DNA from: Candidatus Thiodiazotropha sp. CDECU1
Lineage (GTDB): Bacteria > Pseudomonadota > Gammaproteobacteria > Chromatiales > Chromatiaceae
NCBI RefSeq assembly: GCF_963455295.1
Contig: NZ_OY734020.1
Location: 2,356,001-2,420,000, forward strand
Reading direction: 5' to 3'
Length of the DNA stretch: 64,000 bases
The notes beneath the pieces are model-generated. The model saw only the letters and a list, made by a program, of their open reading frames with translations. It was not told the origin of the DNA and did not search any database. Below, piece by piece: positions 15,933-46,563 of this stretch; the first letter of the stretch is position 1; each line of letters begins with the position of its first letter. The position numbers and the translations under genes were made by a program.

Positions 15933-16772
15933 ATGCTCAAGACAGTGCAATACAGCATCAACATTGAGCAGCTTCTCACTGTTCCCGCAAAAAAAGTAAC
16001 GGCACAAGCGGTGAATCCAGTTGGATACGAGATTTATGAGTATGACGGCTTACGCTGGATCCGCTTTGCTGACGGTTCGATTCAATCAGTAATGCTGCTG
16101 GATGAGCCTGCTTACCCGCTACTAAGCTACATTCAAGGGCTGATTTGTTCACTCCTGTTTTCCCAGCGACCAAATAAACTCCTCAACCTGGGTTTGGGTT
16201 CAGGATCGATTGAAAGATTTATTTTGTCGCAATTTGCCGAGATGGAGTTGGTTTCAGTCGAGATAGACGCCAAATTGATTGAGCTCACCAAACAACATTT
16301 CCACATACCCTCAAGCCACAGGGTCATGCAGATGCCGGCGCAGCACTATCTCGAGGTCAATCAGCAAAATTTTGACATATTGATATCCGACGTCTATCCC
16401 GGTCAGGAAAGTGCCAGCTCTTATCTCTCCGCAGATTTTATAATGCATGCAGCTCGTGGGTTAAATAAACAGGGTGTGTTTGCTGTCAATCTGCTGCCAA
16501 GATCAAAATCAGAAGTGGTTGAGGTGCTAGTCAGGATGCGTAAGACTTTTCCATGGATCTTGATATATGACGTGCCAGATATGAGTAACATGATCCTGTT
16601 TTGCAGCCTATCGCGCCCCCCGACCCTGGCCACTTTGAAACAACGCGCCACGCATTTGCGCAACTCGACAGGCCTAGTGGGCCAAGCGGGAAGTTCTGTA
16701 ACTCTCAGCCAGTCCACAAGCCAAGGTGACAAGGCGTGCGAGCGCAGGACTGGCCGTAGCCAATTCAAGTGA
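15933..16772 (+). CDS. Spermidine-synthase-like methyltransferase-fold protein with altered C-terminus
   Basis: Rossmann-fold protein like polyamine aminopropyltransferases: LLNLGLGSGSIERFIL (nucleotide-binding loop), VSVEIDAKLIEL, and FDILISDVYPGQESAS with the catalytic-type Asp. No N-terminal membrane helices. The substrate is uncertain; many members of this subgroup are uncharacterised. From about 16674 onward the reading frame runs into a 263-bp inverted-repeat element, so the last 33 residues (GQAGSSVTLSQSTSQ and beyond) are element-derived. Joining the two sides of the insertion at one TA restores an in-frame tail TGLDLAPICTELIEIPVKDQ ending at 16993-16995. Confidence 0.82.
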   Translation: MLKTVQYSINIEQLLTVPAKKVTAQAVNPVGYEIYEYDGLRWIRFADGSIQSVMLLDEPAYPLLSYIQGLICSLLFSQRPNKLLNLGLGSGSIERFILSQFAEMELVSVEIDAKLIELTKQHFHIPSSHRVMQMPAQHYLEVNQQNFDILISDVYPGQESASSYLSADFIMHAARGLNKQGVFAVNLLPRSKSEVVEVLVRMRKTFPWILIYDVPDMSNMILFCSLSRPPTLATLKQRATHLRNSTGLVGQAGSSVTLSQSTSQGDKACERRTGRSQFK

Positions 16773-16939
16773 GCACAACACGGTCAGCTTGGCTTGTGGG
16801 CTGGCCCATGGGGAGCCCCGCAAAGGGATCAATTCAGCGTTGCGCTTCTTGGAAAGGGCCTGCCATTCCCCGCGAAGCGCGCCTTGCCTTGATCCCTTTG
16901 CGGGGCTCTGAGAATTACAGAACTTCCCGCTTGGCCCAC
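16677..16939. mobile_element. Miniature inverted-repeat element (nested hairpins), TA flanked
   Basis: Terminal inverted repeats of 32 bp (16677-16708 and 16908-16939, 31 of 32 match) begin GTGGGCCAAGCGGG and are bordered by TA on each side (16675-16676 and 16940-16941), with the pre-insertion site reading CTAG. Inside are two further inverted repeats: 16709-16725 with 16788-16804 (16 of 17), and 16813-16832 with 16889-16908 (20 of 20). A small GCGCTTC/GAAGCGC pair (16842-16848, 16874-16880) is nested within. No transposase is encoded. TA duplication at CTAG suggests mobilisation by an IS630/Tc1-mariner-type transposase (inference). Confidence 0.85.
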
Positions 16940-17139
16940 TAGACCTGGCGCCTATCTGCACAGAGCTGATAGAGATACCGGTAAAAGATCAATAAACCAT
17001 CAAATGACAATCCAGGCCATCTCCTGTTGCGCGCATGCCGTATGTAAAAAACAATCACATTGGCGTAAATTATGCGGTAATTCGCGTTCATTTGCGGTTA
17101 AATCATTTTCTTCGCTTTTGATATGAGTAAACACAAGAA

Positions 17140-46298: not shown

Positions 46299-46563
46299 GG
46301 GTCTGTTAACACTAATCCAATATGCCCTGCTGGGACTGTTTTTGTGTCCAGCAAGGCAGAATGAGCGTGGTGTAGCCCGGCTACATGAGCGAATGATAAC
46401 GCCGCTGGGCGCAAAAACAGACCCAGCCCTTCGGGTTGCGCCTGAAAAAGCGCCACTCTGCGTTGCTCGTCGCTCATTTGGAATAACCAAACTACACTCC
46501 TCGCGCCTTGATTGGCGCTTTTTCAGGCACAACAGGTCATATTGGATTAGTGTTAACAGGCCC
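46299..46563. mobile_element. Second miniature inverted-repeat element, TA flanked
   Basis: Terminal inverted repeats of 26 bp (46299-46324 and 46538-46563, 25 of 26) start GGGTCTGTTAACACTAATCC and are flanked by TA (46297-46298; 46564-46565). Internal inverted repeats: GCTGGGAC/GTCCAGC (46329-46336, 46346-46352) and a perfect 16-bp pair GCCTGAAAAAGCGCCA (46440-46455) with its complement (46513-46528). No transposase. Size (265 bp) and architecture match the element at 16677-16939, but the ends differ in sequence, so it is a distinct family. Confidence 0.85.

Follow-up and report, generated by a model that had tools for sequence, protein, structure and literature searches.

The 263 bp segment at positions 16677-16939 of the window (the whole stretch of 64,000 nucleotides from Candidatus Thiodiazotropha sp. 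CDECU1 that was analysed) is very probably an IS630-type MITE which was recently inserted at a TA dinucleotide into a methyltransferase-like gene, and which belongs to a broad family of elements with a fixed scaffold. A transposase acting in trans would have excised the element from another copy and inserted it into the TA of a CTAG target, the TA being duplicated in the process. As the target is the codon for Leu-248, 31 codons are now translated from the element, and the final 17 native codons are separated from the reading frame. The scaffold of the family consists of two head-to-head hairpins with one apical motif, enclosed by terminal inverted repeats that vary by subfamily. The features of the window that are relevant for this reading are the following.

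15933..16772, + strand: methyltransferase-like gene with a Spermine_synth / MTS domain at residues 75-207 (open reading frame, Pfam match); residues 249-279 are element-coded
16675..16676, no strand: target TA on the left side, within CTAG (sequence and empty site)
16677..16939, no strand: 263 bp element, very probably a non-autonomous MITE (letters, inverted repeats, copies, fold)
16677..16708, + strand: left terminal inverted repeat of 32 bp (31 of 32 complementary)
16707..16803, - strand: inner hairpin 1, conserved motif on the - strand (covariance model R1, E 5e-8)
16815..16909, + strand: inner hairpin 2, conserved motif on the + strand (covariance model R1, E 5e-24, this hairpin being a member of the R1 training alignment via L001)
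16908..16939, - strand: right terminal inverted repeat of 32 bp (31 of 32 complementary)
16940..16941, no strand: TA on the right side, target duplication (sequence and empty site)
16942..16995, + strand: native 3' part of the gene, now orphaned, with 17 codons plus the stop (empty allele, homologues)
46299..46563, no strand: second two-hairpin element, with TA on each side and with ends GGGTCTGTTAACACTAATCCAATATG that are complementary at 25 of 26 bp (one hairpin is matched by the model, E 3e-7)

A first-pass annotation, made from the letters alone, had described an element of 263 bp with 32 bp ends and two internal inverted repeats, sitting in a CTAG target with TA on each side. This description is borne out by the nearly complete complementarity of the arms, by the inner repeats, which could be located at 16708-16730/16783-16805 and 16813-16832/16889-16908, and by an empty site in a genome of the same species. 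When one strand of the element is folded, -178.9 kcal/mol are obtained, compared to a mean of -100.9 for shuffled sequences (z -14.9, with none of 200 shuffles reaching the same value), and the z values for the two strands are -14.9 and -16.0. The element apparently contains no transposase gene, the longest ORF that starts within it having less than 100 codons and spanning the hairpins; terminal inverted repeats and multiple copies are present. It had been suggested to search for other copies of the 32 bp ends, and these occur both in the genome itself (4.46 Mb, one contig), where the full element is found at three places with 99-100% identity, and in related genomes. Shorter or truncated pieces occur elsewhere in the same genome; the total of 22 genome matches includes self-complementary matches of the same copies. 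One remnant, L006 (G000:C1:1007865-1007910), has been reduced to 41 bp. One of its ends is intact, while the left one seems to derive from an internal GTGGG, which suggests a deletion at short repeats.

The last native codon of the interrupted gene is codon 248 (CTA, 16674-16676). Residues 249-279 are encoded by the element, so that 31 residues replace 17 native ones, and the stop codon at 16770-16772 lies inside the element; the reading frame is not kept open through the insert. The first-pass annotation was correct in assigning the end of the present protein to the element, while the number of element-coded residues is 31 rather than the 33 it had given. It had further predicted that removal of the element together with one TA rejoins the frame and restores a native tail, and the protein encoded at the empty site ends in exactly this tail, TGLDLAPICTELIEIPVKDQ. 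The empty allele was found at L023, in a gammaproteobacterium living in symbiosis with the clam Ctena orbiculata, where the same protein is encoded with 97% identity over residues 1-248. The contig belongs to G056, a MAG of the same species, and aligns with the window to the left and to the right of the insertion, but without the element itself. The MAG is a draft assembly in which this contig is unbroken through the insertion site. Its coding sequence runs in frame into the native tail, which matches the tails from other species. With the flanks joined, the filled and the empty allele differ at 20 of 798 bases, 12 of these differences being synonymous and 8 not (pN/pS 0.20).

Homologues from the genus point in the same direction. 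We aligned 18 homologous loci, from which one (L033) was unreadable and was left out. All of the 17 readable ones have a native-type tail at this place, 11 of them resembling L/I-(N/D)-L-x-x-I-C and 6 being more distant but recognisable, and none has the element-coded tail. Two observations had been named which would speak against the insertion, namely homologues sharing the element-coded tail and a lack of further copies of the ends; the former were not encountered among the 17 loci, and further copies do exist. Since the Pfam domains of the protein stop at residue 207, the lost tail lies outside of the recognised domain, although it is part of a conserved tail. The more general statement, according to which such elements donate protein ends, holds once, at this gene.

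DNA resembling the window element was detected in 20 of 56 related genomes, and its most widely shared part is the tip of the second hairpin, not the ends. Based on sequence similarity of this tip (the core) alone, 47 non-redundant hairpins were gathered. The flanks of the core are complementary, with a mean of 13.7 for a hairpin's own flanks versus 5.3 for exchanged flanks. A clear stem was recognised in 42 hairpins, where it begins at a constant offset from the core, the offset difference always being 3; the five hairpins without a clear stem were excluded, and several of these five hold an extra small palindrome. In the alignment of the 42 hairpins, 88.6% of the cells are paired and 397 cells have changed on both sides, compared to 127 in shuffled and 58-91 in slid alignments. 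The covariation score is 0.698, compared to 0.09-0.12 for slid alignments, for a structure that was drawn after the alignment had been viewed. The two inner hairpins have one conserved apical motif in common, while their stems covary freely. A small palindrome (CCCCAAGGGCACTTCCTTCGGGG or a variant of it, about 27 nt) has been inserted, without TA, into one or a few sites of some hairpins; it is carried by L112, L120, L022/L115 and L123 and also occurs inside L128-L131.

With the covariance model, members of the family can readily be located in any genome. At E values up to 1e-4, 78 of 274 genomes in the class have matches, or 75 of 271 when G000, G048 and G049, which gave training sequences, are set aside. 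With E values up to 1e-6, 44 of 299 genomes drawn from the phylum match, and 23 of these are in one family which is placed outside of the class. Since scoring covered at most 14-15 candidates in each genome, the copy numbers are minimum values. Among 128 neighbouring hairpin pairs (147 loci), 111 have the motif first in - and then in + orientation, and the recurrent layout is end, inverted hairpin, 11-12 nt, hairpin, end. After removal of repeats, 82 elements with terminal arms were obtained, while 9 pairs had none by the threshold used. TA is found on both sides of 72 of the 82 elements, in 38 cases in the form CTA...TAG, and the median distance from TA to TA is 263 bp. In 76 of the 82 elements, the hairpins are separated by 11 or 12 nt. 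The arms are diverse: 41 of 100 have less than 75% ungapped identity among themselves, a figure which is inflated by register slips. Among these 41, the mean pairwise ungapped identity rises from 28% in the outer 24 nt of the arm to 40% in the stem and 60% in the core halves, and thus conservation is stronger in the scaffold than in the ends. MITEs usually keep their ends and lose their insides. As judged from these alignments, conservation of the scaffold over the ends is the reverse of this usual picture.

Two variants of the layout may be mentioned. Locus L108 (G003) has, at about 247-343, a mini form with a single hairpin, the stem of which is the terminal repeat GTGGGCCAA itself, placed between CTA and TAG. 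In G157, ten copies (L190-L199) share at least 265 bp at 96-99.6% identity and have the ends CTAAGACAAACGATAACAAAGCC, and this near-identity indicates that the subfamily with CTAAGACAAACGATAACAAAGCC ends has been active recently.

As far as our searches reach, the scaffold is an undescribed structural variant of IS630-type MITEs. The whole element had no match in plasmids and phages (with the low-complexity filter on, which makes this a weak absence), and the same holds, in equally weak form, for the 51 nt core consensus in plasmids, phages and E. coli genomes (a short query, run with the filter on and without a positive control). An exact pattern had no match in the viral contigs of IMG/VR, again a weak absence given a short query without a positive control. 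Among the titles and abstracts found in the open literature, none describes this scaffold, so that its novelty in print is provisional.

Why the hairpins persist may be approached through the kinds of base pairs they contain. RNA under selection should tolerate G-U pairs on its own strand. In the non-redundant sets, G-U accounts for 2.1-2.7% of the paired cells in the long stem and for 0.7-1.9% in the short stem, and A-C mismatches on the motif strand are as common as G-U or commoner. Restricted to well-defined pairs, there are 27 G-U versus 47 A-C in A2 (p 0.027) and 22 G-U versus 18 A-C in A3 (p 0.64). As G-U is rare, it is favoured that pairing in the scaffold is kept at the DNA level, be it by DNA folding or by template switching. 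The excess of A-C in A2 would fit RNA-level pairing on the other strand and leaves room for it; A3 does not show this asymmetry. Tentatively, and as one possibility only, we propose that the superfamily is defined by a folded double-hairpin DNA chassis, to which various IS630 transposases would have supplied the ends or reshaped them, and that this chassis has persisted across the Gammaproteobacteria and in another class since it is read as folded DNA, be it by a protein or by the replication machinery. If the hairpins are read in this form, the family would offer a natural system for studying what sustains cruciform-forming DNA in bacterial chromosomes.

It is also conceivable, if rather doubtful, that the scaffold is not selected at all, with palindromes being rebuilt by template switching in replication and with the similarity of the cores resulting from recent horizontal spread. 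The pairs are almost exclusively of the Watson-Crick type, as template-switch repair would leave them, and fresh near-identical copies do exist in G157. However, the terminal arms, for which the same ancestor would be expected, have only 28% ungapped identity compared to 60% for the core, and all 42 clear-stem hairpins have the same pairing register with respect to the core, always with the offset difference of 3. We consider it unlikely that the conserved double hairpin acts as RNA (a terminator, an RNase III site or a small RNA), with selection on the transcript keeping the stems. The fold of the window element is very stable, the covariation is like that of structured RNAs, and processing is known for transcripts of other MITEs, according to passages in PMC10969869 and PMC2229807. 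This is opposed by the share of G-U, which amounts to about 2% of the paired cells and does not exceed A-C on the motif strand, and by the fact that the two hairpins of an element carry the motif on opposite strands. When 801 bases were searched against Rfam, nothing within the element matched up to E 10, and there was one chance match outside.

As to the enzyme that mobilizes these elements, a subfamily with the same scaffold (L117, L120, L133) ends in GTGTGGTGTAACGTATAAA. The genome which harbours MITE L133 (G007) also contains L087, an IS630-type transposon with PF13358, located in CTAG and ending in GTGTGGYGTAACGAATAAA, and the ends of L087 and L133 have 19-20 of 21 letters in common. A second pair of an IS630 (L182, G231) and a MITE (L176, G238) comes from different genera, with 24 of 28 matching end letters; a third one, L084 with L166, L177 and L222, was compared by eye and is weaker. 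By analogy to these sister families, we infer that an IS630 transposase is also the mover of the window subfamily. The first-pass annotation had suggested to search the genome for an IS630-like transposase with the same ends. A transposon of this kind was encountered for the sister family (L087/L133), but neither in the genome of the window nor with the exact ends of the window element: PF13358 (IS630 transposase) has no match in that genome (G000), it occurs in 3 of 22 genomes of the genus, none of them with the ends of the window element, and no autonomous IS630 with GTGGGCCA.GCGG ends is among the PF13358 loci tested. When 369 genomes of the class were searched for window-type end pairs, none of the matches listed was at transposon distance and all were at MITE distance. 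A comparable situation exists in G157, which has at least 15 near-identical MITE copies, yet none of its 7 PF13358 loci has the ends of those MITEs. That another TA-targeting enzyme moves the window subfamily is nevertheless improbable. While the lack of PF13358 in the window's genome and of an IS630 with matching ends would agree with such an enzyme, duplication of TA in CTAG is a habit of IS630, the preference of which for TA in CTAG is noted in passages of the ISY100 paper and in the title of one of its references, and the ends of the sister subfamily match an IS630. We also considered transposons that themselves carry the scaffold, as 3 hairpin matches were found in 16 loci of autonomous IS630 (L189, L180). 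These matches are no evidence for it, because those in L189, when read by eye, represent a separate MITE beside a transposase remnant, and L180 looks alike.

The comparison with the MAG also bears on the age of the insertions. Copies L002, L004 and L006 are at places common to the MAG, with flanks that are 97-98% identical, while the window copy is not. For L003, no common flank was found among the MAG loci compared, and for L007 only element-sized matches to the same loci. Given the empty site in the MAG, the window insertion is younger than the split of the two genomes, if the MAG contig is right; on this assumption the insertion is young. At the target, codon 248 is CTG in the empty allele while CTA is implied for the filled one, a synonymous change which creates the CTAG. 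That the element-coded tail is ancestral and that the sister lineage lost the element through precise excision is hardly credible: such loss is possible in principle for IS630/Tc1 elements and the alleles do differ by this one base at the target, but the native-type tail in 17 of 17 readable homologues of other species, and the in-frame continuation of the MAG coding sequence into a tail that matches them, already refute it unless several independent excisions are assumed. Replacement of the tail by a recent insertion is a clean and datable case, in which the filled and the empty allele are present in one species and the old tail is still legible.

Among the systems known from other bacteria, as far as passages of the cited papers describe them, RUP of Streptococcus pneumoniae (IS630-Spn1) resembles the window element in being short, in having no transposase gene and in having IS630-like terminal repeats with TA ends, but it has 107 bp (PMC2229807), compared to 263 bp and two motif hairpins that are common to subfamilies with unrelated ends. 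Like here, palindromes are read as part of a protein in the Rickettsia palindromic elements and in enterobacterial RU/ERIC (PMC2229807, PMC10969869), and RU-3 has been reported at the C-terminus of a putative LivJ (PMC2229807). The rickettsial elements keep the frame through the insert, whereas the window element ends the protein. The MITEs of Candidatus Thiomargarita nelsonii, also a gammaproteobacterial sulfur oxidiser, are found inside genes, form hairpins and are suspected to be of IS630 origin, but by description they differ in their sizes, TATA ends and direct repeats (PMC4853749). The QMITEs of Coxiella are again gammaproteobacterial and, like the window element, form protein fusions (PMC5896051); their direct repeats have 7-9 bp (figure legend in PMC10969869) compared to 2 bp (TA) here. 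Proteins that end in MITE sequence are already known from passages in PMC10969869 and PMC2229807, and the present case is a new instance.

When an element that has G as its first base lands in the CTAG of a stop codon, this G rebuilds TAG. Elements that end on the TAG stop of an upstream ORF are L004, L006, L007, L058, L059, L075, L078, L083, L152, L169, L173 and L176. ORFs of at least 100 codons end at 11 of 58 junctions (10 of 31 elements) compared to 7 of 102 other CTAG half-sites (Fisher p 0.035), in a post hoc test for which the 31 elements were hand-picked from the 82 for long flanks; at 5 of the 11 stop junctions the opposite strand is also open, which makes the ORF call weaker. That elements rebuild stop codons at CTAG is thus suggestive only. 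In the case of L078, both ends of the element are on TAG stops, which belong to two convergent ORFs.
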